A stretch of 64,000 nt of DNA from Pocillopora verrucosa (Eukaryota > Cnidaria > Anthozoa > Scleractinia > Pocilloporidae). This document shows positions 1,979 through 64,000 of this stretch, piece by piece. Numbering within the stretch: the stretch's first letter is position 1; the number at the start of each line of letters is the position of its first letter. The position numbers and the translations under genes are program-made. The notes below the pieces were generated by a model. The model worked only from the letters and a program-made list of their open reading frames with translations. It was not told the origin of the DNA and did not search any database. The DNA lies in contig NC_089315.1 of assembly GCF_036669915.1 (NCBI RefSeq), positions 4,684,887-4,748,886 of the forward strand. The letters run 5' to 3'.

Positions 1979-2734
1979 GTAGGTTAATGTTTTGTTTGCA
2001 GTCCGTATAACACCCGCGTATCCTTGTTGGAGACTGAATGGAGGCTAAAAGGATGACAAAGCGCGCTGGGCGGTTTCTTTTACTGAACCGAGAGGACAAC
2101 AAGTAAATCTCAAATCAAATGAGAACTGAAAAGGGAACATACTAAACTTATGTATTGGAATCTCGCCGAGTCTTATTTTCATGGAGAAAGAGGGAATAGT
2201 CTTGTTTGTCGGCTTCGACATGAAAGCGAAACGAGCAACTCTGAATGCTTGATCCCTTACAGCCTAACTTCCCCATGCATATTGTCCATACTGTTCTAAA
2301 ACATTTCCAGTGGTATTGACAAGGAGAATTTAGTCAACAACCAAGATCTCGCTTCTTTAATTTGCGTACATTTGATTTATTTTTCATGCGCTTAATGTTT
2401 GATTCAAAAGGTGCTATTAGAAGGAAAAATTCGTGGTTAAAAAGGTTGATGTTCCTTGGTTAGTCTGAAAATGAGATAATTTGTGATATGGGGAGGGATT
2501 TGTTAATTTGAGAAGGAAACCAATGTTTCTAACCCATTTGAGAAATATCCCTTCAAAGTTTATGGCTTACAAGCTTTAAATTATTTGACAAAATCACCCT
2601 CGACGCGTACCAGCTCTGAATCATAAGTCATCTCTCTCGTCATACCGGTTGTTTCTTTTTGAAATGCGGTGGGGATTAATTGACGGATTCATTAAACTTT
2701 GTGAAAGTTATATATTGTCTTCACATTTTGCCAG

Positions 2735-3114
2735 ACTCTTATCGATTGTTTGGTGATCATCAAAAAGCAATCGACATTTGGAATGAGAACACTCTGCCAG
2801 TTTACAAAGAGCAGCTTGGTGACCACCCCTGGACAGCTTCAATTTTGTTTTACATCGCTGACTCGTACAAGGCCCTTGCAGCTGGAAGCTCTGAACGAGG
2901 ATACATCAACCAGGCCGAGATGTACTCCAGGGAAGCTCATGGGCTACGAAAGAGGCTGTTGGGTCATCATCAGGATACAGCTCGTTCGTGCGTTCAGCTA
3001 AGCGATGTCTTAGTCCTTCAAGGGCAGTTCGATGAGGCTTGGGAGGAGCTCGATAAAGCCTTTGTAATTCAAAACGATATTTTAGGCCCTGACCACAAGA
3101 TCACGAAGAACACA
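2735..3114 (+). CDS. TPR exon of the first NLR-like gene
   Basis: Begins after ttttgccag with DSYRLFGDHQKA and encodes three TPR-like units of the family (LGDHPWTA, LLGHHQDTA, LDKAFVIQNDILG). It fuses what are two exons in the paralogues. The donor ACA/gtgagt at 3114/3115 suggests a further short terminal exon. I could not find one; read-through would stop at 3165. Confidence 0.7.
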
Positions 3115-3285
3115 GTGAGTAAAAAGAGTGATGTGATGGACAAACGAGGATCAAATCCTCGTTAATTGCATATTCTCAAAACCGAAACTCGAGGTAAAAC
3201 TCTTGGGTTTTGGGGAACAGACTGAAGCATGTGAATAAAAGGGTAATGTAGTATTATCAACTCAGTTGATAGTACTAACTGCTGA

Positions 3286-5339: not shown

Positions 5340-6478
5340 TTCACAACGCCCGCCAGTGGAAATTTAGTTCGCGCGTGTCAGATTGACATTTTCAATTTGA
5401 AACCACTAAAAATGTACGTTTAACGGCTCAACAAGAAAGAGCCCACTGATAACTAGGTCGCAAAAAGTATATGTGCAAAGCCCAAGAAAATAGTTAACTT
5501 ATGCGCAGACATTGTATTTTGCTTCCCTGGTTAATGTTCTCCTAGGGAAGATTGCATGTACGTAATAGTTAACTATGCGACGGCTTAATGGCATCTTGTT
5601 TTGACGCGAGATGAGTTATCGCCTTTCTGAGGTCTTCTTATTTTCAGGCAAGATTCTGATCGACTCGAATTTTTCTTTCAATAAAGGAATGACTCAGGCC
5701 TTACGTCTCTCCTTTGCCATTAGTTTCTGTACCATGACGTTTTAATCCGAATTGTTTTGGGCGGTGTAATCTGCGATTACACATCACTACCGAAATAGTA
5801 AATATGGCGTCCATCTCCCCTTTGACCTCGAACTTATGCCCTTGAATTACGCGAATTTATCCTCTTGATGATCTCATGCTTACCCATGGGCTAAACAAAT
5901 AATACAGGATGTATGACAAACTGATAAAATGTCCACGGCCTTCTGTTACGTGCAAGAAAGTCGAACTACGTGCGTGTGATTTCCTTCCCGAAAAGTGTAC
6001 GTCATCGATCTGTCACGGGGAGCTACGTGAAATACTGAAAGCACGGACAAAAGGTTTCTTTCGGTCAACATTTCAATCATGATCACGGATAATAAATCTT
6101 ACAATTATATGCTACCATTTGTGCTTTGATCTGATAGTTAAATCGTTTTTCTTGGCCGTAATTAACATGGTTTTTGGCGAATATTCCCTCCCCCTTCAAA
6201 TGGAACGAACTACACGCAATAACACAAGAATTCAAATATTCCCGCACCCCTGAAGAACCGGTCGAGAGAGATAAATAGACACCCCTTCCTGAAACATGGT
6301 ACAAACCCTAGGGGGGTACCCTTCTGAAGCAATAAAAGGCCGGAGAAAGGAACTTCGGAACATATCTTGAGTCAACTTAGAACTGCGTTGCTTAATCCAA
6401 GTTTAGTTTAGAACTCGGTTCGATTAGTACATTCAGATGGCTAACTTTGGTCTCTCTGAATATTAACAAATATTGGAA

Positions 6479-6991
6479 AAAATTTGCCGAATTTGTGGAG
6501 AGCGATTGAAGAAGGCAAAAGATAAGTATGAGAACAGTTTTCTTTGCGCTGATAAGACGGAGATTATTTTCACAGCCTTCGGTGTCAAAGTTTGTAAAAG
6601 ATGACCTTGACATGTGCCCTCCTAAGTTCTGCCACAAGTGTTACAAGGTTGCTTTAAGAGGAGGCACACGCCTTGCAATCAATGTGTGGCCTCCACACAA
6701 ACGCACTGGAAACTGTAGTTTCTTTAAAGATCAACAGAAACCTGGTAGGAAGAAGAAGACTAAACCTGGAATAAAACCCAGAGAGGACTCAGTTGAAACC
6801 AGGGAACAAGTGGAAATGTTGGAAGGAATGTCTGGCACTTTCAGCTTCCAACCTGACCCAGCCTCAATCTCATTCTCAGCCCAAAGGAAGCTTATACATC
6901 CCTAAAGGAGGAAGTTGGATTGTTCATCATTCGACAGTTCCTTTCACAGTCTCAGGATGGGGCAACCATTCTCCTCAAAAAAGGTGGCCAG
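6479..6991 (+). pseudogene. RAG1 N-terminal-like zinc-binding exon (frameshifted)
   Basis: Frame 2 reads KICRICGERL...FGVKVCK. After the A-run at 6597-6600 the sense passes to frame 3 as DDLDMCPPKFCHKCYKV...WPPHKRTGNCSFF. The C-x2-C, FCHxC and W-x-PH-x4-C spacing is that of the region preceding the RING in RAG1. A later part of the exon, in yet another frame, reads FIIRQFLSQSQDGATILLKKGG and ends at the donor CAG/gtaata. Confidence 0.55.
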
Positions 6992-7064
6992 GTAATAAAA
7001 TATTTTTTTAAGTTAAAAATTAAGACATTCATTTTCAAAACTAAAGATAAGAATTCATTTTCAG

Positions 7065-7354
7065 CCCTTAGAATTAGTGAAAAGGACCAGGGCAAGGAAA
7101 ACAACTGATGAGGTAACAAGGAAAACTGCTAGACATAGATCAAAGGTAGTAGCAGAGACCAGGACAGCTGTCAGTGGTGGTGCAGCTGGTACCCAGTTGA
7201 AAGATGAACTGCGTGCAATGGGCAGACTGGAGAGGGAGGCACTACTGAAGGAGGCCTTAGGAAAGGAATTTAAAATCACCATTCCAAGAGGTGACATCCT
7301 GGCAATGAAAGCAGACCTTGGTGAAACATGGTACAAAGTTAGAAAGCTTAGGAG
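7065..7354 (+). pseudogene. RAG1-like family, central basic exon
   Basis: Open exon between ttttcag and gtaaga. It is lysine/arginine-rich at the start (KRTRARKTTDEV) and ends in IPRGDILAMKADLGETWYK, followed by VRKLRR. The same order of blocks recurs in many predicted cnidarian proteins. No frame damage within this exon. Confidence 0.5.
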
Positions 7355-7813
7355 GTAAGAAAAACATGAACAAAAAATCATTAAAAACCCCAAAGATTTT
7401 CCAAAGACATTAGATATCAGTAACAGTAACTGTTTTGAGTTTGTATCCAAATTTGCCAACTGCCTGAATACCCTCAATCTGCTTACAAAATTATGATGGT
7501 TTGATCTATGGGGACTATCCTCAGAGTGTGAAATAAGCCAACGAAAGCAAGTTCAGTCCATTACTGACCCTGCCAACTTGGTTTGTGAAATGGTCGCATT
7601 TGAATTAAAAAAACCAGGTTGCCATCCAGATGTCAGGGAAGCAGAGTTTGGTTATGTTACAGACCTGAACCAATTTATACATCTTCATCTGAGTGAAAAT
7701 GAAAAGTATGATAATAAAGAAATAGTTAAAAAAAAGTAAATGCAAATTAAACAAAGTTAGCTGTTGCCTATTGCTGTGAATTATAGTCTAATTAGAGTTG
7801 GTTATCATTTTAG

Positions 7814-8572
7814 GAATGGAAGGCTGACATGGAACAATGCAATCCCAGAAAATGAAGTGCACATAAAACTTGGAGGAGATGCTGGTGGTGATTCATTTAA
7901 AATGGCCTTCCAGATTGCTAACCTGAAGCATCCAAATTCTAAAGCCAACACAGTGGTCTTTGCCATGTTCCATGCAAAAGATAGTTGGGCTAATTTAAAG
8001 CAGCCTTAATGAAATATAAAGAACAGGTAAACACTTTGAAAGAAGCAACCTGGGCATAAGTAAAAAAAATGTACCACACTTTTAGTTAGTCTGGAGAATA
8101 GAGACTTGAAATAGAATTATATTAATTAAATTCTTATTTTTGTTTTGCCCATTTCTAGAGGTAAAAAGAAAGTGGTTTTCCTGTTTGGTGACTATGAGTT
8201 CCTATGCAAGTTATTTGGAATAGCTGGTGCCTCAGGTATGATCGAGACAATAATTCACATTTACAAATAATTATGATTTAGCAATTCAATTAAAGAATAT
8301 AAATGTAGCCTCTACTCTACATTACTATTTCTGTGAAACAGGTTTCCACCATGAGAATTGTATTTGCAGGCAAATATCCATGTCTTTGGTGCAAGATAAA
8401 TCATGAAGTAATGCAAGTCTCTTGCCATAAACGTGGGCATGCTGAAAAACGAAGTCTTGACAACATTTAAGAGGATTATGATAAGTTTGTAGCAGATGGC
8501 TCTGTTACAAGTTGACAGAAGTTTTATCACGATGTGATTCGCGAGAAACTGCTGGACATTAAATTGGACAAA
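7814..8572 (+). pseudogene. RAG1-like catalytic-core exons with stops
   Basis: Three exons (7814-8026, 8159-8235, 8370-8572) with consensus donors. They contain GGDAGGDSFKMAFQIAN, then FLFGDYEFLCKLFGIAGASG, then GKYPCLWCKI. Both putative catalytic aspartates are still encoded. The ANLK/ALMKYKEQ junction lacks a base, and two stops interrupt the last exon. Confidence 0.5.
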
Positions 8573-8649
8573 GTAAAGATACAAGAGTTTGTTTTATTGC
8601 TTTGAAGAAGGACTTACAGGACACCTAAATAAATGGTTTTCTATTTCAG

Positions 8650-8947
8650 GTTTGTTGCAGAGGAAGACATCACAAGTTTTCTTCAGTTCCTTAGGGAAAA
8701 ATTCCCAGACATGACAATCACAACAAAGCTGGATATGCTAGAAGAACATGTTTGCCCTTTTCTTCGACGATGGCACATGGGCCTTGGATTCTACGGTGAA
8801 CAAGGGATTGAAGGAATACACTCTGAATGCAATACCCGGTCCCATCATTTTAACCATGTGAAGAAAAAGGACACGAGATTGCGTCAAATCTTTGACAACC
8901 ACCATATACACGACTTTCGCAAGGGCCGCGGCGCGCGAGACTGGTAA
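8650..8947 (+). pseudogene. RAG1-like family, C-terminal exon with putative third acidic residue
   Basis: Begins after the acceptor ctatttcag and reads FVAEEDITSFLQFL...LEEHVCPFLRRWHMGLG, then FYGEQGIEGIHSECNTR. The spacing of His, Gly-Glu and the following Glu resembles the E962 segment of RAG1. The frame stops at 8947 after a GC-rich GRGARD tail that may already be foreign sequence. Confidence 0.5.
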
Positions 8948-9046
8948 TTACTTGAACATGAAGTCGAGGTCAAAAAGGTCACGATTGAGGACAACACTGT
9001 AAACAGAAGGTCAACTAAGGTTGAATTGGTAATAGTCAGCATGGTC

Positions 9047-12000
9047 AGCATTATATTCCATCCACCAAAACCACCTCGGTCGAGAGGGACTGGGATGGAA
9101 TATTTAATGACTTGCAAAACATAATCGAAGATTCTCGGAAATCCGCCGGTGATGTAGCCGAACATCCGAAGCTGTAAATCCCATGATTCTTGAGGAACAA
9201 ACAGAAACAGCATGGGGGGAATTTTAAAGCGCGAACCTTTGCTTTATGGTAGACATGCAGATAATTTAGGATACGTTAATTCTGTTGATGAGGCGCATAA
9301 ACTTATTGCGGAATTTGAAACAGGATTGACGACGAAGTTTTCTTGCTTTAAAGCTGACAAAGGTTTCAGGAACACTGGTATATATTTATATTGATATAGC
9401 TCTTTGGCATTATAAAGCTTTGCTTTCATGTCCAAATTGAGCACTCTACCAAGGAGGAGTCATGTCTCGCTATTGTGCATTCTCACTAGTTTATCTAGTT
9501 CAAGTTCTTTGGCATGGCTTGGATAATACCACAATTGTGGAATCATTTGGGTTAGCTTAATGCTTTCACCTCCTTCCTCGGACAGAAGTCACAAAATACT
9601 CTGGGAAGATGTATGAGATATCTATGGAGCAAAAATTCGTTTTTTACTGGTGTGCATTTCCTAATTTTGGGAAGGAAAGTGTTCAATTGCCAGCACGGCA
9701 TAGATAGAACAGCTGGAGAGAAAAGGAAACGAGAAGATGCAGAAGAAGTACTGTACATAATATTTTCTTTTTATCTGCAACCTTTGTGTTACTGTCACCT
9801 ATGGCTTGCTAATTCGAAAGGTCAAATACACACATGAATGGGTCATATGACATTGATCTCAGAATACTTTTATGACAAACGTGATAACAGTTCAATCTCA
9901 GCTAAATTGAAGATGGTTTAAAAGTTAAAAATTATAAGAACTTTTCACTAACATATGCTGCTGACATTGGAGAAAATATATGCAATTCTGCATTTTTTGC
10001 TTTCTCTCAAGCAATCATATGTTGGCTCCTTATCATGCTATGACACTTCCATTTTGTCACATGCCAAAAAATACTTTGAGAAATACACTATCACTCATCT
10101 TACACTGTTATGTTTACCTATTACAGAAGGCCCCAAACAAAGATTTTGTTTTCAAGAAATTAAGATTTCTTGTTCAAGACACAAGGAAGTTTGACTGCAA
10201 AGCACAGATAAAAATGCAAGAAATTTTATTTTTTCCAGAGAACAGGGTAGTTCTCCCTATGTATAAACAGAACGAATCTAGTTTAATAAATCAGATATGC
10301 GGCATGATTCCTTTTCTTCCATCCCCACTCAAAACAAGCAAACACACCTATGGAGGTTTCAGTATTGTCTGCAAATGAAAATGAGGAAGGTGATCACTGC
10401 AAAATTAAGCATTAGGGTTCTTATTTTTAACATATTGATTATTGTATACTGATATCAAGAAATTAAGGTTGCAAGTAGCAGCCAGATGAGTTATAGTTTG
10501 AGTTTTATCAAGTCCATTACTTTGTTAAATTTAGAGTAACCTTGTCTTGAGAGAGGGAAATTGAGGAGCTGTAATATACTTATCATCAATTAGGGACCAC
10601 AAGGAAAAATTTTTCTGTAGAGACTTTTGGAGGAGAGGGCTAAGACTTATGACAAGCTGGCAGACACATAGATAAACTTTACTGCTAAACGGGTTACAAA
10701 GTGTTCAGTATTTGGATCAGCTATGGCTCAACTTAAATCGTTTGTGGTTTCCTTTCTCTGTGTTTATTTTTCAAGTTATGTTACACAAAAGAACACAAAA
10801 ATGACAAGGAATGCTTTTGAATATTAAGAGGCTGGAATAAGCAAGAAACCAAAACTGAATTTTAAACAGTACAAAGTTAATTTGATCTTCCAATGTTATT
10901 TAATTTTAAATAATCATTAACAGAATTTGCTATTTAAATTTATCCCCTCCATTTTTTTGGATATTGTGAGCAAAAACAAACAATTATCACAAAATACATG
11001 GTATACAATGGTTTGATTCACCAATGTGGCAAAGGCCTTTCACCGTCTATCCATAAAAAGGGAAATAATTTGTAAAATGTAAGACATTCTGCATCTTGAG
11101 TGTATACTTATTCATCCATGTCAAATTAAAGGTTACTTGAAATAAATGTGAAAGATTTATAAGATTTTCAGACCCCTGATAACAATTACTGATGTCCTGA
11201 TTTGTTGTACTCAAAGGTTAGGATTTTAGCGGAAATTCGAGAAATTTCTGGATCTGGAATTTGTTGCAAATATCTGTTTAAGTCAGTTTAAGTCACTTAA
11301 AAACTCTCCTGTTTCAAGATTACATGATTGCCACACCAGAACCTTTTATATTCTATATTGTGCACCATATTATGATTATGGTTTCAATAATAAAAGGTGC
11401 TGACTTAGGAACTTTGCAAAATATCTCTACATACAAAGAAATAGATTGCAGTTATGTACTCCAAATAGCAGGTCACATCAGTCTTCTGTAAAGGAAGTAG
11501 CAGAAATTGCTATGGTGATTTTGGTGGATGGAGAGAAACATCCACCAAAACCACTTTATTTTATGTGTTGTGAGTTATGATAATGATTATGAACGTTTGG
11601 TCGGTCAGCAATTGTGCACCATAAAAAATAATTAGCCAGAGCACTAACTACCAATTAGTGGTATAAATCTTTTGTCTCCCTGAAGATCTAACAGTAGCTA
11701 TAGATAAAATAAAAAAAAATATTGTTGATGGTTTTGGTCAGTGTTTTGGTGGATGTTCCCTACTGACATCCACCAAAACTACGTAACACCTGGGCACCTT
11801 TTAAATACGTGAAATATCTGCATAAAATTGCGTCAAATGTTTTACAATACTACAATCGAACAATAAATTAATACTTACCATTTCTTGAGTAAAAAGTTTT
11901 GACGCAATTTCCCAAACAAATAATACACTTAGATCATCGGGATAAGTCGGCATGTTGTCGTAGCTTCGTAATTTTCATTTAGTATAACAAGTCATGAGTT

Positions 12001-12062
12001 GTCCATCATTCCATCTCAGTCCCTCTCGACCGAGGTGGTTTTGGTGGATGGAATCTAATGCT
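9047..12062. mobile_element. ~3 kb element bounded by inverted repeats
   Basis: A 47-base unit at 9055-9101 (attccatccaccaaaacc...) recurs in reverse complement at 12008-12054 with a single mismatch. Similarity continues outward (AGCATTA) and, imperfectly, inward (ATGACTTG on both sides). Two shorter palindromic versions of the CATCCACCAAAAC core lie inside, at 11518-11554 and 11743-11780. The interior has short exon-like coding remnants on the plus strand. I read it as a degenerate DNA transposon; class unknown. Confidence 0.5.
9192..10250 (+). pseudogene. Exon-like remnants of a transposon-associated zinc-finger-like protein
   Basis: Three plus-strand blocks lie inside the inverted-repeat element. 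About 9210-9378 includes GYVNSVDEAHKLIAEFE and TTKFSCFKADKGF, with a possible donor gtatat. About 9640-9755 includes FLILGRKVFNCQHGIDR. About 10126-10250, after ttacag, includes KAPNKDFVFKKLRFLVQD. The C-QHG-x-D-R pattern after a KFS...KGF block is reminiscent of CARF/ALS2CR8-like proteins that are common in cnidarian gene sets. The assignment is tentative and no continuous frame joins the blocks. Confidence 0.3.
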
Positions 12063-15000
12063 TGCCACGAGTCCGGAACTAGCAGGGAAAGATCCCAAAC
12101 CTAAAGAAAGAAATTTAAAACGAAAAACGAACGAGTAAAACTCTTTCCTTTTCACTAGCAATGTATCGGTTCGTTGACTAAGAACTAGTACTATGTGTGT
12201 AAATCTAGTGTAATTTATTTGCTCAACTTCTAATTTAGACGAATAAAAGAGTCACCACAATCTTTGGAACCAAAACTAAACCTTTCTAGTCGTTTACAGA
12301 CTGTTTCGCTTGAAATTCAGTATCTCCGAGATTCAAATGGAGTCGCTGATAACGGCCGATCTTAACATATTAAAAGCGCCTCGAATGGAGTCTCAAACAA
12401 TTCGGATTAAAACACTTACCTCTGTCAGTTGTTCAGTAAAGTTTCAAGTCTTCTCTTTTGACTCTTGCTTTGCTGGAAAAAATTCGAGCCTTTTCCGAAT
12501 TGAAATCAAAGTTTTCAGTTGATTTACTAGGGCGTGCTTGTTAGACTCCACCATAGAAACGTGTTTTCGTCGAACACAGGCAAAATTTGACCGATTTTAC
12601 TCAAATTTTCGACGGCAAGTGCCTATTCCATGTGTAAGCATCCGCCATGCTAAATTTCACTCGCATGCATTAGATACGCAGCAAGATTTCATTGGCTAAA
12701 CTATATCTTAGCCCAAGGGGTTTCCATGGACGCTAGATTTATGCAAATGCATAATTTTGTATTAACCAGAGAAGTAATAACTAGACCCTGTGAGCAGGGT
12801 AACTGGGATACCTGGATGGTACTGGATCCTTGGAATCAAGTGTAGTGATACTACGGGTGTCGGACTAGTATACTGAAATAGTGAGCTCAAGTCTGGCCAA
12901 GGGCATACACCTGTTTAAAAACATAGGGATGCTATGCATGCAAGAGTTATTTTTTGTGGGGTGGGTGGATTACTTGAAACATTGTAAGCGGTCTACATTC
13001 TTACGAAAGGAAAGAAGATTATTAATGCGGAAAAGAATGAAATGTCGAATTACCTCACACAGATATTCTGTTGTAGATTACGTGTTGTGCGAATAAATGT
13101 AACCAAAAATGAACTGTATTGGTGCCACGGATACCTGTTAGTACAAAATGCAGATAGCAGACTGCAGACCGGACTCAAAATATAGACTGCAGACTGCAGA
13201 GTGGGTACAAAATGCAGACTGAGAATCTGAAGAGCTTTTACGTCTGGTAGATAATAACATGTCATCTTACAGCTTACAGAGCGTCACGCAATCGCTTTCC
13301 CGCGATCAGCCTTCACGATTATTTGCACTATTGTGGAAAATTCCTGACCCATTTCTCGATGAAAGCCGATTGTAATATAATTTTAAGCCTTCAATATAGT
13401 CTTCTTACTTTGCGCGCGGGTTGGTTGGTGTGATGTCTGTACAGATTTTACCAACGTATTAAAAGTAGATGACGTGAATAACAGTGATGGTAAAGCAAGC
13501 TTAAAACGGCAGAAATCGCCAGAAATCGCCAGAAACTACAACGGATACACGGGGTATGAGTTAGTTTTATCGTTTTTACGAGAAAAATCTTCATATTTCG
13601 AAATATTTATCGTTGTAAGTCGACCATATTTCGTTCCCTATATTATCCCTTATAATATTTTAAATTTTCAACGATTCCTCTCGTAACTTAACACCTAGTC
13701 ACACAACGCGTGACGCGTTCATGAATTAATCGTTAGCTTTTTCTCGAGACGTGAGCTTGGGCCGCCTGAGACAAGACAACAGCGTAAACAATACTTAACA
13801 TAATAAAATTATACACAAAAAACACGGGATTTTGGATCATGTATTTATTAAAAAAGAATATCCATACAACTACAATGAACACAAACATAAGATTCACCTT
13901 TCTGATCGTGAAATTAATACGATTCGCACTGTTATCGTAGCTACGTTCCCTAGAATCAAGTGAATCCAACATGGCGTCTTTCTTCACAAGCAGTTTGCAT
14001 CCATTAGAGTTTTGTTCTTCAGTCTCACAGTAGTAGTGTTGTTCAATAGATTGCATAGAGTATATGCAGTTTGGTTTCAGATTTCAGATTTTGCTTTTTA
14101 CAACAACAACTAAGACATTGGCATACTTGGCATACAAGGTATACAAGGCATACAGGGCATTCAATGCATTCATGGCTTTCAAGCGTTCGCGACTCAGTCC
14201 GTTCCAAAATTACCGCTTAATAACATCTTTTCGTGTGGATTGGCCGCGAACAATACGACTTGTATATGCGTCTATAAGTATTTTGAGCGTTTGCGCCATA
14301 ATGCTCCAGATGATCGTAATCCAAACACGTTGAAATACAAAACGACTGACAAAAGAGTTTTATAGGAAAAAATCTCGTGGTTCGTCATGTGACCCGGCCC
14401 TGTCCGTGCATGACAACGTCAATCATCATCAAGATAACACGCGTGATCAGCATGTGAACACCTCATTGGATCACAGTTAGTTGTCATGGTGTTGAGGGCT
14501 CAATGACCACTGGGTACTATTGCGCAATTTTTCCATTTTGTGGCGGAGGAAAAAAAAAGACAAAAAAACAAAGGCATTTTATGACTGGGCTACCACAGGT
14601 ATCCCAGTAATTAACTCGATGTTTCCTGCAGACCGCATACGCGAACTAAATTTCCACCGCGAAACAGCCGTGGGTTGTAGTGTTTCTAATTACGGAAACG
14701 TGATAGCGCTAGCAACGACGCACTTGCCTGATAAGTGTTCAAAGTCCCATCTATAAAACCGTAAACCATCTCGGTAAGTTTAATTTACTTTCCATGTATT
14801 TTACTACGAATTCAACGAATGATACTATTATGCAGTAGCTAGATTAATATCAACGCCGGAAGAGACAACCATTTGCGCTGTAGAAGTGCGATATTTATAA
14901 GCCGCTACGGCCGCCACCTAGGAAGTGCAAACTGCTCCGAGCGCGTTTTTGTGGCGCTTTTGAACACAAAATTTTGTTTACATGTCGTATCTCAGCCAAG

Positions 15001-16306
15001 AAGATCCTTGAATCGTTAGAGAAAACAGTCCAGTGTTCAGACTTCTTGAATCACGCAGGGCTCAATACACATCATACTTATTTCACTACGGGACTATTTG
15101 TTCAACTAACAAGGATAAATCTCGAAAGTTCCAATAGTCCTTTCACTAATTTGGCGATAAAGGTTGGGCAGTTCCCTGCATTTTAAAATTTCTTGCTCTG
15201 AACATAGCTGGAAAAGACAGAAATTGCACGACAACTGTTAATGCTTCGATTGATTTTCCTTGTTTATTGTTGTCTCGCTAAACCCGCATAAGCATAACCA
15301 CTTGGGTTCTCGAGAGGTTCTTTTTAGTAAAAAGACAACTTACACCTGACCTATAATGATTCGTTTAGCTACGATCTTATTACCCTAAGGAAGCTAATGC
15401 AAAACGATAGGGTTGATGATGCTGTACTGATTACATAATTATTACAGGAAAAGAGCGTCAAGGTAAAAATTAGTTGATATAAGTTCATGCCAGCTTACGG
15501 CAGCATATGATTTCATAGTTCAGACGAAGGACAAATTAAACTTATACAGATTTTTGTTTAAAAATGGACTTAAAGGTGCCATTCCTCCCGACCGGGTCGA
15601 GACAACCTTACTCGTTCTTATATCTATAAAACTTAAGATGTCGGTGCATCGAAAAACTTCAAAGACAGCTTTGCTGGGAACCGGATACACTCGAGTGAGT
15701 CGCAAAAATCAGTTTGAATAGCTCTAATGTAACGCAAGTCAAGCAGAAACATGAAACTTTGAAAAGCTTATATTTTGACACTATTGTAAATGTTCTAGAA
15801 ATATCCTATTATTTTAATGTCATATTATTTCAATCATAACCAGCCTGAGGTGTTGTTGCAAATGCTAGACTTTTTTTTCTCTGATCTCGACAAAAACTAC
15901 GATTTAGAACTGAGAAAAATAACTTTAAAAGCACAATTCATCTCATGCAACGTTTTATAATTTTTGCTGTTGACCTTAGGCAAATTTTTACGAGCAAAAT
16001 AGACATCTATGCGCCTATCGTGATCCTTTCCATTTCCAGTCCGCAAAAGCTAAAGTCCTGTGACAAAAAAAGAAAAGAAAAAAGAAAAGAAGAGAGAAAG
16101 AAAGGCACTATAGTGGTCTTAAGAAAAATATCCGGACTGTTAAATTACTATTATCAAATTATTATACACAAATACTGGCGATTGAAACGAAAGGAGGCAT
16201 ACGGATGGCTAGATGAACTATTGCTACATGAAATATTGCTACATGAAATATTGTTTATTTAATATTTGTCAGGTTAAAGCCTCAGCTGTTATAAACTATC
16301 TTTATT
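12063..16306. other. Intergenic, no gene recognised
   Basis: AT-rich sequence with short degenerate tandem patterns: GCAGACT motifs at 13147-13222, AAATCGCCAG twice near 13502-13523, and degenerate GGCATAC steps near 14115-14165. Frames up to about 107 codons have low-complexity or transmembrane-like composition without splice or family support. Confidence 0.55.
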
Positions 16307-17003
16307 ATGGCTTCTCATCCACCGCCAACATCATTTACCAGGGAAGCAGCTAATTATGCACGACTTTGTCGGCTCCTGATTGAAGTGGGCTCCCAGGTAT
16401 TACGAGAGAAATTCAATGATATCCATGACCCTGCAAATCTCCCTGTCATACTTCACAGTTGTATGCGTAAACTGAAGTCTCTAAGATCCAGAAGGATCCT
16501 TAGCCAAGCGCAATGGGACTCCATGAACCCAGCCGTACACGCGACGGTTTCATCTGAGAATTTTGACATCTCTACCTTATGCGTGCTCTTGATAAACATC
16601 TGTAACCTACCACCTCCAGCAACAGGTTGGAGACGCCCTCCAGCTCCAACGGATTACTCTGTTGGTGCAGACATTTTAAGAGTGAGAAATTTCAGAAATT
16701 CCTTGTATGCGCATATCACGAAGGCCTCCATTGATGAAACCAGCTTCAACAGCTATTGGAATGACATTCGAGAAGTATTGGTGAGATTAGGAGGGGCGAA
16801 GTATGACGAACTGATAAGAAAAGTGAAAACTGAATGCATGGATCCTGATACTGAAGAAGATTACAAAAGCCTTCTAAAAGAATGGCAAAAACAAGATGAT
16901 GACATTAGAGACCGACTCGAATCGATTGACGAAAAAACGGAAAAAACCCATGAGTTACTGCTCGATTTAAAAGACCATGTAGTGTCTCTAGGAGGTATCC
17001 CAG
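16307..17003 (+). CDS. Exon 1: DZIP3-like HEPN domain
   Basis: Encodes residues 1-232. NYARLCRLLIEVGSQVLREKF is typical of the first helix pair of animal DZIP3-type HEPN domains. The R-N-x4-H core (RNSLYAH) is the signature found in HEPN ribonucleases. A possible upstream acceptor (cctcag, about 16280-16285) suggests a 5' UTR intron. Confidence 0.8.
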
Positions 17004-20000
17004 GTAGGTCAATCAAACTGTGCAACTAGCAGTAACTGAAATATCGCTTTTATGGCTGTTATTTTATTTTCACTGGTGACTCCTTTCTAATGAAGAGAGC
17101 TCAGCTCCAAATCATCCTTTTTTTTATTTCCATGCGATAATTGGGTTCATAGGTCTTTTAAGGTACTAAGTCCCCTTTAAAACTTTAGAACAAAAAACGC
17201 TAATAAAGATGTTTTCCTATTTTCTTAAGTAGCTATCAAGGCGATCTGTTTTCGCTTGGTTAGAAAGTCAAAATTAAATTGTAATTACAGTGAATCAAAA
17301 CAGAGATTTCTGCTTCGTGTTTGCTTCAAACATGTATATATCAAATTACCCAATCAGGATATAAAAACTGAGGCCGAAAATCAGGGAAAGTAACCTTTTC
17401 AAATGAACGATCACTTTATAGAATTATTTACCTTGACACAGAAAATTAAGTGCTGGGGAACATTTTAGCTTAACAGTTATAGAGTTTCCTTAATGATATA
17501 TTCTAATCCCATTAGATACAGGTGAAAGCCAGTTGCAGCTTTCTATTGAGGAGGAATTAACTGATGACGATTTTGAGAAGCTAAATATGTTGTGCGGACT
17601 ACCAATTTTAGTCAGTCGTCTCGAAACAGCGAAACGCCCACGGCGCGAGCGGTTTTGCGATGTCCCTCATTACTCTGAGCCGAGTGATGAAAATAAGCAT
17701 ATGCTGTCTTCTTTGCTCTATCACATTGGAAGGATGGACCTCAGAAATCGTCTACTTGGTGTACAAGGTAAGTATTTAACGTGGAAACTCGTAGATTTGT
17801 GAATTAAATGACTTTTACATTGCACAGTGTTTATTGCAGAGTAAATTAAATCAGAGGTCTTTCCAAAACTTAGAAGGTAGTGTGCAACTTACCAGAAAGT
17901 TCTCCAGCTTACAAGCTTACTTACTTCGCCTACACTACACAAGTTGAATAAAGGTTGATACAACCTTGATTGATGTGATATTTATTATATAATTTACGTT
18001 ATTCTAATTTGAAGGAATGGCTGGTATAACTCCTTAACAAGTGATTTCCCCTCGTGACCAAAGCAATCAGTAGGTTTTCGAAGTAACTCTAAGTAATACG
18101 ATTCGAGAGGGTCGTAGTCGTCTCTGGAGGTTTACAAACTCTTATAATTACTATGGTTAACAGAAAAACTTAAAGCAAGGAAAAGTTATTGTTTTTATGC
18201 TTATTTTCTCCATTCAATTGCTAATTTGTCTTGAATTTATTAGAAGCTGCTCTTAAAAAATCATTCAAGAATGTGGGTGGTATTCCTTGTGAGGTTCCAA
18301 ATTTTGTGGGGCGGAAAGGGCAACGCTCCCTCATAATGGAGAAACTGTCTCCGAGCGATCCCTGTCGAATAGTTTCCATCACAGGACCTCCAGGTTTTGG
18401 CAAATCTGCAGTAGCCATACAAGTAGGACGTGAACTGGTTTCAAAGGGAAAGATGGATGTGTTCTATATTACCCTCAAGAGTATGAGGTCATTAAATGGC
18501 ATGGTAAACTCCCTCCTGGGAGCTCTTCAAATTTTAGCCGGCGCAGACCCAATCCAGCAAGCAAAGCACTGTCTTCGCACACTATCAAATCACACCATCA
18601 TCATTTTGGACAACGTGGACGACCTGTTACTTCCTGAAAAGAAAGATGCATTTTGCAATTTCGTGAAGTCTGTGGCCCAAACTGCTTCTCGTGTTAAGTT
18701 CACGATCACATCCCGCCAAGTAATAGACTTTTTATCTGTCAATAAGTTACCAGTCTGCTTGGACTCTCTTTGTCCAGACCACGCCAAAGAGTTGCTTTTG
18801 ACGCTGGAGTCAAGAGTATCAGAGGAAGATGCTGAACAGTTGGCCTACTACTGCGGTGGAGTGCCTTTAGTTCTACGCACCACAGCTGCTGTTTTAGCGA
18901 AAGGAATTGATGCTAAAGCTCTACTAAGCGAGTTCCAAACAAGCTTGGTGCCAACCCTGAAATCATTCAAGTCGAGTCTTCCAACATTGTCCCATGATCA
19001 TCAGCTTTTTCACTGCCTCGAAATCTGTTTCAGTCGTTTACAACCTGACCAACAAACTGCTCTTGTATCTTTGGCAGTCTTCCCAAGAACATTCAGCGCA
19101 GCTGAAGCCCAGTTTCTGTTTAGCCAACTCTCTCAGTACAGACTTGGAATGTTGCTTCAAGGGCTGGTGGATCAGTCCATGCTCCAGTTTAATTTCATGT
19201 CAAAAGAGTACCACGTTCACAATATCATTCAGTCATTTTGTGTTGATCGTGCAGTTCAAGAAGATATGAGACTACAGTACCATTCAGCCAGAAAATTATT
19301 CAACGTTCGGTATTTGAAAATGTTACAGGATCTATACGCTGTTTTCTTGTCCCACAATTGCTGCGATGCCGTCCAAAAGTTTGTCAACAATCGATTCAAC
19401 ATCAAGAAGGCCTTGAAAGATTCTCTATCTTTCCCCGATTTGGAGAAAAAGTGCATCGATACGGCAGTCGAAGTTACTCCTTTCTTGGCCAAGGTGTTCA
19501 CAAAAGCTAAATTCCTTAAAGTATACAGTAAATTTACAAATGCCTGCATTGCAAATGGAGATAAGAAGAGACGAGGTGACTGCTTGACAGCAGAGGCCTA
19601 CGGCATCCTTTCCCATTGTGCATGTCACCTTCCGTGTCCATCGGCTGTGTCCAAATTCAAAGAAGCTGACAAGATCCAAAAGGAACTTGGCGATGACTCA
19701 TCTATCATTCGTGCCTTTTGCCTGAGTAAACTTGGTCGCTGTTTCGGCCAGCACAAAGACTTGGATCAAGCCATTCTACTGATAAAGAAGTCCATTGAGA
19801 TCGGTGAGAAGAAGAACAACAGGATTTTTACTGCAGCAGCTTATAAAGACCTGGGAGGTAAAATCTTGCATTATGTCTCTTTGAAAGGGTGCACTGAGTA
19901 ATCGGACCACATAAACAATATTTTAATTTCAGCCCTTATACACAAGGCGCTCCTCTTTCCAGAAAAATCTCCCCGGACTTAAGTCACTCAAAAGCGCCGT

Positions 20001-20830
20001 TGTTTCTCCGGCTCGAATCACAGCCAAAAGTGGATCAGTTGTCTCCTGGCATGATTTTTCTTTTCACACATAGAGTGCAGAACCGTTCAACTGACGAAAA
20101 ACTCGATGGTAAGCTTGGCGCCATATTGAATTATTCTTGCACAGTCACGTGCAAAGTCGCGTGACCAAGCAAGAATCAGTCTTCTGAAATTCATTAGCTT
20201 TCCCTAGCAGTCCCCTCTAATAATTCTGCTTTGAGGTACCTACATACAGGTTTTTTTTTGGTGAGCGGCATAAATGGAGCGCGGACAACTACATGATATC
20301 CTCAAGACTGTTTACAAGTATTGAAACGATATTTTTAGCTCTTCAATGCCGGAACATGGGCAAATCTTATTCATACAAGCAGGGTTTCCCTTTATCAAAG
20401 TCAGTTTAATATTTATATTTACAACTGAGGAAAACATCCAAAACTAAAGTAAAGCATCCTCAAAAGCAAATTTAGTTTAAATATAAAATATTTCCCATAA
20501 CTGATATGATTAATGCTTTTGTTTACTCATGAGACAACTGATTAATCTAAGCCTTCTACGGCTCTCTTATTTGTAGCTGCATATGCGTTTTGTGGAGATC
20601 ATCAAGAGGCCAATAAAATCAGGGAGGAGTACTCACTTCCGGTGTATCTAGAGTTCCTGGGAGACCATCCTTTCACAGCTACTTTGATGGACGACTTGGG
20701 GACATCGTACCAAGCTCTTGAAAACTATGGCAGTGCGATAAAGTTTCTGCGTAAGGCACTGCACATAAGAAAGCACTCTCTGGGTAATCATCAAGTAACA
20801 GCAAGGTCTTTCTATGACTTTGGAAAGGTA

Positions 20831-20885
<55 letters not shown>

Positions 20886-21326
20886 ATGTGTTCTTCAAAA
20901 TTTTATCCTATTCTCAGAATTCTTTTCATTGATTGAACCTCTACAGAAACTTCAAGGGTGCAAATATTGGATTTCTAGGCTTCAAAGTCATGATTCTTTA
21001 TCACTCCACTGACTATACCCGTTTCAGCTTTTTTAAGGCCCCTTAAACACTATTGTGAGTTAGCAATTCAGCAGGATTTTAATAAATAATTATTCAATCA
21101 CCAGGCTTTAGCCATGAAAGAAGAATTGGATGAAGCTCTCGAAGCTCTTAGAAGTGCCCTCGCTATCCAAGACGAAGTATTAGGAAACCACCAGGAGACA
21201 GAACGTTCACACAGGGAGATAGCTCACGTCCTAAAAAAGCTTGGGCGACACGAAGAAGCCAAAAGAGAGGATCTACTGGCCCAACAGGTGTGCTCGTCTG
21301 TTTTTGAGCCCCAGCCCGAGTCCTGA
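16307..21326 (+). CDS. HEPN-DED-NB-ARC-TPR NOD-like receptor, intact, 1009 aa
   Basis: Five exons: 16307-17003, 17522-17767, 18244-19857, 20577-20827 and 21105-21326 (stop). Intron phases are 1,1,1,0, all GT-AG, and the joined frame is open (3030 bases). Domain order: a DZIP3-like HEPN (residues ~10-175) with RN-S-L-Y-A-H (R130-x5-H136); a charged helical linker (~185-225); a death-effector domain (~237-313) with RMDL at 303-306; NB-ARC with GPPGFGKS (362-369), IIILDNVDD (433-441), TSR (470-472) and CGGVPL (518-523); a winged helix ending in HVHNI; and kinesin-light-chain-like TPRs (LGDHPFTAT, LGNHQVTA). The start is the first ATG in frame. Expected role: a cytosolic sensor that switches on nucleotide exchange and signals through DED contacts, the HEPN adding an RNA-directed or assembly function. 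It may be the parent of the pseudogene at 22.8 kb. Confidence 0.85.
17522..17767 (+). CDS. Exon 2: death-effector domain
   Basis: Phase 1-1 exon of 246 bases. LSIEEELTDDDFEKLNMLC matches helices 1-2 of death-effector domains, and LLYHIGRMDLRNRLLG carries the RxDL motif near the end. The middle (PRRERFCDVPHYSEPSDE) departs from typical DED helix 3-4 sequence, so the fold call is strong at the ends and weaker in the centre. Confidence 0.7.
18244..19857 (+). CDS. Exon 3: NB-ARC, winged helix and first TPR helices
   Basis: Covers residues ~315-852. After the P-loop, Walker B and GLPL box it continues through FSRLQPDQQTALVSLAVFPRTF (winged-helix start) and then a helical region. This includes the cysteine motif C-A-C-x3-C-P at 19618-19638 and CLSKLGRCFG. 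Confidence 0.85.
20577..20827 (+). CDS. Exon 4: TPR
   Basis: Starts after tttgtag with AYAFCGDHQEAN. Contains FLGDHPFTATLMDDLG and SLGNHQVTARS, the family's TPR pair. The donor AAG/gtaaac is followed six bases later by a long (TA)n run. Confidence 0.8.
20834..20881. repeat. (TA)n microsatellite in intron 4 of the HEPN-DED NLR
   Basis: About 48 bases of uninterrupted TA, starting only six bases past the splice donor at 20828. In-frame read-through would give an artefactual Tyr-Ile repeat. Confidence 0.9.
21105..21326 (+). CDS. Exon 5: last TPR and C-terminus
   Basis: Phase-0 exon after caatcaccag. ALAMKEELDEALEALRSAL pairs with VLGNHQETERS and ends in VFEPQPES before TGA. No canonical AATAAA is seen within about 100 bases downstream. 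Confidence 0.75.
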   Translation, partial: ALAMKEELDEALEALRSALAIQDEVLGNHQETERSHREIAHVLKKLGRHEEAKREDLLAQQVCSSVFEPQPES

Positions 21327-31600: not shown

Positions 31601-34600
31601 TCAGCAGTAATAGTTTACAATGGCTCATTTGCGTAAAAGAGGTCTATCGACTGGTAAGTAATTCTCGTCTGTTTCTTTCAAATAAAGTGATTTAACCTCT
31701 TTTGCTCTAAATCATGACTGAATGCATTCGTAAGTTTTAGACATCTAGGCCGTAGTCACGATTATTCAAAGTTGCGAATAAAATGTTTGTAATTTCGAAA
31801 TAAGTCCAGAATCACTGCTTTCAATGAAAGCAGGTAACACCGCCAACGTTAACAATGATTGCAAGAGGGCCAACAACTTTCCAGCTTTTAAAATGTCTAG
31901 AATTTGTGTAATTGCGGAACTTAGGCGGAAGCTATTTAAAAGAACTGGCCACACAGTTTCGAAAACGGCTTTGTACTCATTAGTTGAGCTCGCGATCAGA
32001 AGAATATTGTTTGTGTTTAATAGTTTAAGAGATGTATGAGTTAACACAGACAAGAATCTTTCCATTCGAAGTGTTTTCGATTTGTGTAACAGTTTACACC
32101 AGCTATTGTGACATTTGAAACGCCGGGTTGTGCATGTAATGACACGCTCTGGCTGTCAGATAAAAGCGTGGGTTACTGATAGTCTGAAAGAGTAAGACTG
32201 AGTTGTTTCTAAGCATTGTTTGTCTTTAGGTGAATGTTAATGGTTAACATCGTGTCCATGCCTCATTGAGCTTTAGAAATTTTGCATGGTCATGGCTGAT
32301 AGGATGCTAATCGACATCATTCGCCTTTTTGAACAATTTTGATACAGAAGCTACTGCATTTCCTGTTTACATTTTGGTATCGTTGATATCAGTTTTATCC
32401 TTAAACCACACAAAAGGCATTAAAGGGGAAGTACAGTCTAGAAAAATTTTACTTTTATTGAAGAACTTTTCCTCGGGAGTTGGAAAATAATTGCCGTTTT
32501 CCTTCAACTTTCTCTGGTTCACGTCCACACTTACTCAAAAACTTACCTACATTAAGAAAACAAAGCATACAAACTAAAGAGGTATATTTACAATTAATAT
32601 TGTGGTGAAGTTCACCCTTATAAGAAAAGATTTCAACACCACATGCAATAAAAGGGCTGACAACGAACTGCATTTGTTTCTTACGAAACGCATCAGACTA
32701 ACTTGCTAACAACTTTAGCATTTTGTTTGCATGAATTTTATGAAAAATGTTTATTCTGTCGGTGCTTACTCATTTGACGGATAATCTTCAAGACTTCATT
32801 TCTCACTTAGTGCATGCTAACGAGGGCTGCTTTCATAGACGTCGGCTATAGTGAACACATGGGTTCAAATGATTCGTGCTCAGTAACACACTGAAGCTTG
32901 TTCCCTGCAATATCAATGATAGTTCATATCACTCAGTTAGCAGTGTGGAATAAATCCTTCATTTTGTTTTACTTTTCTGTCATGTTTAGGGTTGAAATTA
33001 TCTGCCATTTTACGACATAATTCAGAGTTTATAGAAGAGCTGTGTTTGTGCTTGGACCGTGATACGAGAGTGATGCGTAATTGGAGACATTTGGCATCAA
33101 TACTGGATGTCGACTCGGACGTGACTACACGACTAGGACAGTATGGTGACTTCAGTCCTACCATCCGATTATTTGATTATCTTGCGGCCTCGAATCCAGA
33201 TTTGACAATTAAAGAGCTAAAAGACATCCTATTAGAGATCGGGAGAAACGACCTAATCAGTTTGCTGATCACAAGAGGTATAACACAAAATTGACTGAAG
33301 TCAATTGCTATTCTGTCTCTGTCATCTTTTAAGAGGACTTTCAGTATGGGACGTTTGGAGGTTGCCGTATCTCCTCAGACACAGATTTTGATGCTGTTAG
33401 TTAGTAAACCTTGTTGGTGTGGTTTTTACTTCTTTGGGACGGTATTGGCTCACTGAAAAATGACCCTTTGATCAACTGTCTAAATTCAATAGATTTTAGG
33501 GAGCTTTTGAAAACTTGAAGGATTGTTATGTCGGATTAATAACTAAGTAATTTCTTGGCTACATTTCACAGCTGTTCAATTTTATACAGGGGAGAATTGT
33601 GAGTATTGTGAAACAGTGCTGTGTGTGGCAGTTTATCAAAAAGGTTCTCAGGAATTCATACTGAGTATGTTTCTCTTAATTTGTTTGACTATCAGCTGGT
33701 TGCACTGACACTGAAAGAGTTCTGGATGTGATCACTTCGCCAAGTGATGAAGCTCCTTCACCCACAGTTGGTCTTTTGGACGAAATTGCGTTAGCTTTAG
33801 ACAGGACGTCACTGGTTTTGTCAAACTGGTATACCTTGGCGTTAAAACTGGGTGTGTCTAGAAAAACCTGCTGGACGTTTGAGAGACGATCGACTGAAAA
33901 TCCGACCGGCAGATTGTTCCAGCATTTGGCTACAACTTGCCCACAAAAGACACTTTTAAGTCTTAAGGAAGCTCTGGATTCTATTAAGAGAAAGGATCTG
34001 GTGAATTTTCTTCATGAGGAGAAACTGAGAGGTAAGTGTCGAACACTGCATCACAAATAACTTAAGTTTAACGACGCCTAGCACCTTTGCAGCCTGGATT
34101 TTGTTTCTAAGTTATCGATAGAAAAGTCAGACTCTCCTATTTTTCAGGTGGTCCCTAACTATGAATAGCTCAATATGCAATTGGCTGCATGAGTATTTCA
34201 AGAATCGATTGGACAAAAGTTCTCTCTGCGCTGAGGCACCATTTCTGGAAAGTTAACTACTAATGATCTGTGGATACCTTTATTTTTCTGTAGACGACAT
34301 GTTACTTAAGGATATCATAACCCCTGGATCGGAACTCTTAGAAAGATTGGCGCTAGAACTTAATCGAGAGGAGAATCCCGGAGTCAAAAACTGGACACAT
34401 CTGGCCTGGAAAATGGAAGTACCAGCTGACGTGCGTCGGGAGTTTGCTGATGTCAAACAAGTCAGGAAAAGTCCTACAAAAGAGGTTCTAGAATGGGTGG
34501 CCGCGCACTTCCCTGAAATAGCATTAAGTGACGTTGCAAAAGCTTTAGATGAGATTCAGCGAAATGACGCAATACAGATAATATCCAAGTATTTTCCTAA

Positions 34601-37600
34601 CACAGTTGGTAGGTTCTCGCTGATATAAGTACATTGGGGTTTATTGGACAGTTTCAGTGTTTGCCTTTCCTAATCTCTTTGACTCCTCGGTGCGGCACTT
34701 TCAGTTTATGTCCAAGCCTGCTTGTTTTCGTTATACAAGCCATGATCTCTAATGTGCATTACCTCGTACCCCTTGTACAAGAGATGGCTAGAAGAAAAGT
34801 ATTCGGGTACAGGCACATGCTACGTTTTTTTCGGATGTCACAACGACGCTTACAAAAAAAAAAAAACAGGAACAATAAAAAATTAATTATACACAAAAAA
34901 GTCCTATGTATACATCTTAAACTCTGACACTCTAGCTCTGATTTTTTTTTTTTTTTTTACAACTCAAGGTCCGTAAAACTACTCTCGCACATGCGAAGTA
35001 AGATCGACTTAACTAAGCTATCCTCTCATAACATTGAATACCTTTTCTCTTCCTTCAGATTCAGCCTTGCAAGGACTTGGCCGTTCATTCAAGGACAGCT
35101 TAACCATGCCAGATCCGACTGGTCAGATGTTTTCAACTAGCTTCGAGAGAGAAGAGCGGGATTCCTTTCCTAACAAAGGTAAGAAGGAAAGCGTTAATTC
35201 ACCCGTGATGTTCATAGAATTAGCTAATTAAGAAGCCTTGGTCGAAATTGTGCTATGATTATGTAACTAGGAACAGTCATTTTCAATGGGTTTGTCATCA
35301 TTTCCTTGTCCTTACTTAGCTCAATTATTCGAGGAGCTAAGTGGGTAGAAACCTCATCAAAAAGTAATCTTCGCAAAACTGTATGTTGATGTTTACGTCG
35401 GTGTAGCTTGTATACGACGGTAGATTACTAACAGCTTCACGCTAAATGCCTTCTCCCCACTTCAAGTGGTGTTTTCAATCTTGATCAGTATATCACCATG
35501 GTCGCATTCAAAATGCGAAAGCTTATTAAAGGCTGTTTGCGCCTGAATTTAAGCCAAAGGCAATTTCATGCCAAAATCATGTTTTGAAAATTGTAAAATC
35601 AACAACTACGTTTACAAACGGCGATTTTCCCCAACTTAGGATCCGATTACCCAAAGAGTTCAGCTGCTCGATTTCTGAGGAATGCTTAAAGCGTTTAGCC
35701 CTTCTAAACCTTCCGTCTACAAAAGGTTTATCTGTGGCATTTTCTGTTTGTGGAACGTATATAAGTGAAAGCAAGATCCAAAGTTTTGTTGTTTTTCCTA
35801 CCAACTTCCACGCAACTATTAAACTCACACTCTTATGGTCACCAGAGTTGCTCTTCCTTTTTATTGGGCTGCTGTGCTTTATTCCAATGAACAGTGGAAA
35901 GGGATAAATGATCTTAAATGGTATTTCTGTCTTTTCACTTGCAGAAGTGAAGGAACAATCTGGTCATTATGGTAACTTGCCAGATCGGACGGATTTGGTG
36001 GGCCGCAATGAAACATGCGAACGTATCATAACTGCCCTGTCTTCAAACATGGCTGTTGAAGTTGTAGCACCGCCTGGATATGGAAAAACGTCGGTGGTAA
36101 TAGAGGTCGCTCATAGGATGATCGAAAGGAAAACGTGTGTCGCGTACGTTAAACCTCGAGGTGTCACTTGTGTAGAAGATTTAGCAAGCAAAATAATCGA
36201 GACTCTAGGGTACGTTCCTGGTGAAAACACAATAACTGAAGCATTAAGTTGCATATCTTCTCTAAAGAGAAAAAGTGTTGTGTTGATCATTGAAAACATT
36301 GACAACTTACTGCATCTTGGGGATCAATTCAGCAACGATAAATACCATCAGGAATTAAAATCTGAAAATTGCTGTACTCAAATGTGGGGTAAAGTCACGC
36401 AGGGCGACTTTTTGACATTTCTAAAATACCTCGGACAAAGTCCAAACATCCAGCTTGTCCTCACATCACGAGAAACCTATGATTTCAATGGGTCTCTTCC
36501 TTTCGAACTGATTAACCTAGAACCTCTGAATGACAGTGATTCAGCCTCTATGTTCTCAAAGTGTGAGGATGGCCTGGACGACGATCTGATTAAGGAGCTG
36601 GTCAGCGTTTGTGGTGGTATTCCCTTGATGATCTGCACAGTGATCTCGATTCTAAAGGGAGAAAATCCCCAGAAGGCGGCCCAACTTTCCACAACTTCAC
36701 CTAGTTGTCTTGCTAGAGAACTTGTAGCCAACGAGGATCGCATCGCCAAATCTCTTGAAATCTGTTTTGATCGCTTAAGTCAAGAAAATCAGAAGATTAT
36801 TTTGATGCTCTCAACATTTCCACACAGATTCACGCAAGAGCAATTTCAAGCAGTCTTTGGGTCATCTGTCACGGCTGATTTGCAAACTTGCCTAAATTCC
36901 TTGGGGCATAGCAACCTCCTTCGCTTCGACGGGAAAAATTGTCAGTATTCCCTTCATCCTTTCATACGAGATTTCTTTTCACTGAAGTCCGATCACATAG
37001 ACGTCAAATCAACTTTCATTCGTCATTACAGTGACTTGGCTGTTACACTTTGCGAAACATTCTTGAGTAAAGATTGCAAGTTGGCAATTGATCAGTACAG
37101 ATCTGAAAAGGACAACATTCGGGAAGCCATGGCTTGGTGTGGAGACGATCACCCTGAGCTTGACCAAACTTTCAGGGAGCAATGCATCGACGCCTTTAAC
37201 GAGGCAGCTGGATTTCTTGCCAAGGTGATGCGCAAACAAGAATTTCAGTCGCTCTTTTGCAAGCTTGCGTATCAATGTCGCTCCCACTTGCACCTCTACA
37301 GTGCTTGCTTGACGAACATCGGAATGAAGATAGTATTAAGCTGCACATGTACCCCACACATTTGTCCAAGAGCCTTGTATCAGGCCAGAGAAATGCTGAC
37401 TCAAGCAATTGACATTCAATCAACACTTATGGACGTGAAGGACACCACTCGTGCCCAGTGCATGAGCAAGTTTGGATTTTGTTATGTTCGCGAGGGGCGC
37501 GTTGATGAGGGCTATGAATATCTCGAGATCGCCTTGAAATTGCGACGGGACAGAGTAGAGAAACTAAACAGGATCAAAGATCATGTCATGTTAGCTGCCT

Positions 37601-63410: not shown

Positions 63411-64000
63411 TCATTGGTCGGTTTCGATCCGTCTGTTGTTTGTCGGTCTGTTTGTCGGTTTGTTCACGTCGTTAATGAGTCGTTTGTAAGGTGCTGGTAA
63501 TTGTTGACATCTGTTGAGAGGCGTCTGTTCTAAGTTAGTGAACCAGCTTTCCAGAGTCAGTCGTTGAAAATAGTTTGTACTGTAGGTTAAGCATTTAGCA
63601 GAGTCCCAGTCGATTCTGTGATTAGTTTGTCGGTGATGTTCAGAAATGTGATTGTTTACATCGCCATTTCTAGTTGCTCGTTTGTGTTCAGTTAGTCGCG
63701 TGTTAAGGTTTCTACCAGTCTCACCAATGTAGGAGGCCTGGCAGTCGGAGCATTCGATCTTATAAATCGCTCCCTGTCTGTTGTTGGGTTCGTCTTTGTC
63801 TTTAACGTTGGTCAGCAAATGTCGTAAAGTAGTAATAGGCCTGTGAGCTACGCGAATGTTGTAAGGTTGTAGGATCCGCGCGATAGCCTCAGAAGTGCCT
63901 TTGATGTAGGGTATAGCAGCTGTAGTCGTGACAGATGTGGAGTCCCTTTTAGTTTCTGTAGTGTCGGTCACCCTGTGAGTGTTTCGTCTAATGAAGTCAG
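63411..64000 (-). mobile_element. Penelope-like element, C-terminal GIY-YIG domain (partial)
   Basis: A frame open from the window edge to a stop at 63411 encodes the end of a Penelope-like reverse transcriptase/endonuclease. RNTHRVTDTTETKRDS is followed by a linker to LRHLLTNVKDKD, then GAIYKIECSDCQASYIGETGR. GAIY and YIGETGRNL are the GIY-YIG nuclease core; the downstream H-x3-T-N-H is typical too. The reverse transcriptase lies outside the window. Confidence 0.85.

Follow-up and report, generated by a model that had tools for sequence, protein, structure and literature searches.

A decayed gene on the forward strand of a 64,000-nucleotide (nt) stretch of the Pocillopora verrucosa genome (NC_089315.1, positions 4,684,887 to 4,748,886; hereafter, the window) is very probably a dead copy of a DNA transposon gene from the Chapaev group (CMC superfamily). 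The original prediction, made from the sequence alone, had taken the gene for a RAG1 relative carrying both the N-terminal zinc region and the catalytic core. Kinship was borne out by Pfam RAG1_imp_bd matches and by the alignment of a predicted core with RAG1: the family is related to RAG1, and both its N-terminal zinc region and its core are of RAG1 type. By profile, however, it belongs to Chapaev, and on sequence comparison it appears only distantly like RAG1, the RAG1-like (RAGL, RAG1L) proteins and Transib. Since the combination of zinc region and core has already been published for Chapaev, the window copy adds a member to a known transposon group, not a new link to immunity.

The gene was delimited by tblastn with related proteins, which placed it at 6437-8908 with a further 28 residues at 12052-12135. 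All motifs named in the original prediction were located in the order given, from CRICG through a frame change to PPKFCHKC and WPPHKRTGNC, and on to the four core motifs (Table 1). The predicted range, 6479 to 8947, contains them but misses the start of the gene and the displaced C-terminus. Matches to P0062, P0063 and P0064 were 79-88% identical where they spanned neither an intron nor the frame change, and 54-60% identical where they spanned one. Among Pfam models, DUF1280 matched the window above the family cut-off (expect value, E, 1.1e-12), and RAG1_imp_bd gave two matches in collinear order, one to profile positions 97-132 (E 0.011) and one to 154-217 (E 2.8e-4), each scoring under the 23.3-bit cut-off. 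Given these matches, the motif set is not a product of chance. By its order, the exon at 7065-7355 stands in the place of the RAG1 DNA-binding and dimerisation region. At ~6980-7094, and in relatives P0076, P0079 and P0088, basic residues come after a Gly-rich GGQP/GRGPP stretch; RAG1 has its nonamer-binding region at this place, of which the stretch may be the counterpart.

A first search, with the gene pieces strung together as query, retrieved 26 relatives (PF12560 in 9/26, PF06918 in 9/26), the nearest named ones being from P. verrucosa (P0062), P. meandrina (P0063) and Stylophora pistillata (P0068, a gene model fused with retroelement domains). Twelve core relatives (A1) and 12 N-terminal exon proteins (A2) were aligned, with P0068 and P0087 excluded. 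At E up to 10, DUF1280 was found in all 12 A1 proteins and the RAG1 core model of Pfam in none. At E up to 0.01, 9 of the 12 A2 proteins matched RAG1_imp_bd (best E 6.1e-11) and 11 of them matched RING models. DUF1280 comprises putative Chapaev transposases and has been placed in one clade with RAG1 (PMC3985635). The profile test proposed with the original prediction thus puts the family in another transposase group, yet one related to RAG1. A later search yielded three proteins, P0088, P0089 (lancelet Branchiostoma lanceolatum) and the already known P0068. P0088 (1012 residues) carries RAG1_imp_bd (E 2.7e-7), a weak RING match below cut-off (E 0.011) and DUF1280 (E 8.3e-17) in a single frame. 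The P0062 gene model likewise unites a portion of the zinc region with the core. Among the relatives retrieved, none from a coral combined zinc region, RING and complete core in one protein.

Taken together, the relatives suggest one transposase of about 1000 residues, with an N-terminal Chapa zinc region, a RING and zinc finger in RAG1 order, and a DDE RNase H core. In the alignments of the relatives, C-x2-C and H-x4-H lie between the second Asp and the catalytic Glu, and the core would hold a zinc site formed from them. Like RAG1 and Transib, a working enzyme would most likely pair the transposon ends, cut them with a two-metal D-D-E site and insert the element at a new place; dimerisation, DNA binding or the recruitment of host factors may be aided by the zinc and RING part.

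The fold of the core was predicted for the relative P0079. Its best structural match is RAG1, with alignments over 450-506 residues of RAG1 chains among the matches listed and 13-16% identity, and its acidic residues lie in or beside the RNase H strands and helix; a missing RNase H fold, which the original prediction had named as a way to be wrong, did not occur. By sequence, a profile of the 12 core relatives found no RAG1 chain among solved structures. The Chapa part alone found RAG1 weakly in phmmer (E 0.0052 for chain 21wb, no single stretch being significant; E 0.59 for full-length chains). We rejected the RING and zinc finger alone as a pointer to RAG1: those of the coral type are 39-40% identical to TRAF6 and 38-40% to RAG1, and because TRAF6 scores as well or better, the RING is not RAG1-specific.

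The window copy is dead and cannot make a working enzyme, having acquired stops and a frame change, lost RING and core sequence, and exchanged a His for an Asp. Relative to P0064, the zinc region has one stop and one frame change, and its second half (6510-6890) lacks one Cys of the final C-x2-C. P0064 residues 154-335 (RING, zinc finger and Pro-rich linker) had no tblastn match in place before 6869, pointing to an internal deletion near 6869-6890. Compared with P0063, the stretch at 8366-8581 carries two stops, and core residues 147-339 had no tblastn match between 8575 and 8660. The C-x2-C is retained, but the first His of H-x4-H is an Asp (DMLEEH, 8732-8749). Another window motif, CHKRGH, was dropped as a candidate for this H-x(3-4)-H site, as the alignments put the site at PK-x-H-x4-H before the Glu. 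The C-terminal piece lies about 3.1 kb beyond the last exon piece. This splitting insertion holds 60-nt inverted repeats (9042-9101 and 12008-12067, 93% complementary, 2.9 kb apart), and its bounds are approximate since the right repeat extends 16 bases beyond 12051. Weak ALS2CR8-like frames lie between the repeats, and the stretch is perhaps a nested transposon.

Several points weigh against a Chapaev assignment. Around the gene, no terminal inverted repeats could be paired with matching target-site duplications, so its status as a transposon follows from homology only. The P0079 core model has long low-confidence stretches (mean predicted local distance difference test score, pLDDT, 65.8; predicted template modelling score, pTM, 0.61), P0079 is ~30% identical to the coral proteins, and the N-terminal model (P0064) is of poor quality (pLDDT 35.6). 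The two Asp residues are 70 residues apart in most relatives versus 108 in RAG1 (RAG1 residue numbers for the D-D-E and zinc-site comparison from PMC4914335). Two perfect inverted pairs flank the gene, one of 19 nt (5739-5757/12395-12413, E 0.003) and one of 18 nt (5356-5373/14640-14657, E 0.008), and it is possible that they are ends of the transposase element or of another element. Chapaev target-site duplications are 4 bp; the four bases immediately outside did not match for either pair. Neither pair recurred elsewhere in the window with <=3 mismatches, a biased test in that the patterns had been chosen for recurring.

Other origins were weighed against these data. That RAG1 is the best structural match and that the N-terminal order is the same as in RAG1 would fit a true RAG1-like gene of a cnidarian RAGL transposon whose RAG2-like partner was lost here, and Martin et al. 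(2020; PMC7204232) report RAGL pairs from two corals and one jellyfish. We consider this origin very unlikely given the contrast between the RAG1 core model and DUF1280 in the core relatives, the failure of the core profile to reach RAG1 by sequence, and the low identity on fold alignments. In addition, the invertebrate RAG1L tail Cx2Cx3GHx4C (PMC7204232) was absent from all 89 retrieved proteins, of which many are fragments, and none of the 11 tails inspected ends with it. A Pfam scan of 27 open frames of the window (seven of them gene pieces) gave no kelch or PHD match, though introns or shorter frames could hide a RAG2-like partner.

The predicted core fold and the D-D-E residues are likewise shared with Transib (HzTransib). 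The DUF1280 matches nevertheless make a Transib transposon extremely improbable, and canonical Transib transposases have no identifiable domain beyond the core (PMC4411706). The window has 27 sites for the Transib heptamer CACWRTG, about as many as chance would give (28.5 expected), and no pair flanks the gene: between 3118 and 17822 the only site is at 7949, inside the gene, although the ends of this copy may have decayed. If a Chapaev transposase had been domesticated as a host gene that later decayed, this would account for transposon ends not being established, but the copy is heavily broken, and the last exon alone retrieved 61 relatives at many identity levels that look like a multi-copy family, a count that may include one locus from many samples; there is scarcely any likelihood of such an origin.

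The Chapaev copy can be set against known systems. With Chapaev its family shares the DUF1280 core, the Chapa zinc region, the RING of some subgroups, and C-x2-C and H-x(3-4)-H between the second Asp and the Glu; no difference was seen beyond the losses of this copy (RING and part of the core). Relatives share with RAG1 and RAG1L the order Chapa zinc region, RING, zinc finger and core, together with the zinc-site spacing around D-D-E. N-RAG-TP of Aplysia, reportedly due to Panchin and Moroz in 2008, may be part of a Chapaev element. It too is an invertebrate transposon carrying a RAG1-like N-terminal region, but it is described as entirely N-terminal-like (PMC8355894), whereas the window gene continues into core exons.

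The original prediction held that a gene of this kind would bear on when the two parts were joined, which is right in outline but already in print. Kapitonov and Koonin (2015; PMC4411706, which cites Kapitonov and Jurka, 2007, for Chapaev) described the Chapa domain in Chapaev transposons from lancelet and sea anemone, with a RING after it in two subgroups, and concluded that a common ancestor of Chapaev, RAG1 and Transib already had Chapa and RING fused to the core. The jellyfish RAG1L is reported to be without RING (PMC7204232), and a rival idea invokes fusion with N-RAG-TP (PMC8355894). Our literature searches, which did not cover Repbase Reports or most subscription journals, found no published account of coral Chapaev families. 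Such families, with zinc region, RING and core, supply sequences for the question of when the parts joined because their N-terminal and core trees can be compared; the window copy itself is just one further fossil.

Distances in the two parts disagree. Zinc-region identity between RAG1 and four Chapaev proteins (three of coral type and P0088) is 32-35%, about the distance between the coral type and P0088 (34-35%), and the three coral-type regions are 68-79% identical among themselves. Core sequences of P0088 and other Chapaevs are about 28-36% identical, against the 13-16% of RAG1 and the P0079 model on fold alignments. One reading of this disagreement is that the zinc region might have been exchanged as a module between Chapaev and RAG1-like transposons once their cores had diverged, and not have come down together with the core from one ancestor. 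We think this doubtful, and the few constrained zinc ligands or the two differing alignment methods could explain the discordance.

Table 1. Parts of the decayed Chapaev gene in the window and the matches that place them.
Feature	Position	Strand	Evidence
Gene start, first half of Chapa zinc region (RAG1-like CRICG, 6485-6499), one in-frame stop	6437-6592	+	tblastn P0064 1-52, 88%, E 3e-25; Pfam RAG1_imp_bd E 0.011 on 6467-6601
Second half of Chapa zinc region past frame change (PPKFCHKC, 6618-6641; WPPH-x4-C)	6510-6890 (match convincing only from ~6600 onward)	+	tblastn P0064 25-153, 57%, E 3e-43; P0062 1-96 at 6612-6890, 86%; Pfam RAG1_imp_bd E 2.8e-4
Exon 1 end	6869-6994	+	tblastn P0064 336-377, 81%
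Exon preceding catalytic domain	7065-7355	+	P0088 345-615 against 7065-8240, 26%, E 3e-23; P0089 3-67 against 7155-7355, 40%
Open frame, weakly supported candidate pre-RNase H exon	7497-7739	+	Open reading frame within P0088 match; without Pfam match
Exon with first catalytic Asp (GGDAGGD, 7872-7892)	7803-8006	+	DUF1280 E 1.1e-12; P0062 match; motif
Exon with second catalytic Asp (FGDYEFLCK, 8184-8210)	8162-8237	+	P0062 and P0063 matches; motif
Exon with C-x2-C (CLWC, 8381-8392), 19 residues past second Asp, two stops	8366-8581	+	P0063 77-146, 87%; P0062 217-288, 85%; motif
Exon with H-x4-H site and catalytic Glu motif (GEQGIEGIHSE, 8795-8827)	8660-8908	+	P0063 340-422, 87%, E 2e-43; motifs
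Insertion separating C-terminus from rest of transposase	8909-12051 (approximate)	.	tblastn gap; 60-nt inverted repeats; weak ALS2CR8-like frames
Final 28 transposase residues	12052-12135	+	P0063 419-446, 79%, E 1.5e-7

Elsewhere in the window, frames with NB-ARC/AAA/STAND, TPR or Death domains were noted, all on the forward strand (216-1625, 2680-3162, 18225-19898, 20546-20929, 33689-34057, 35908-37620, 53616-54032, 54383-54736 and 55684-57531), and the transposon seems to sit among clustered NLR-like genes of innate immunity. A HEPN_DZIP3 domain (16295-17026, +, E 9.5e-50) lies upstream of an NB-ARC frame and perhaps belongs to the same NLR-like gene. Neither a tRNA nor an Rfam match reaching the gathering score was found in the window. 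A GIY-YIG nuclease domain (63414-63998, -, E 5.9e-5) perhaps derives from a retroelement.
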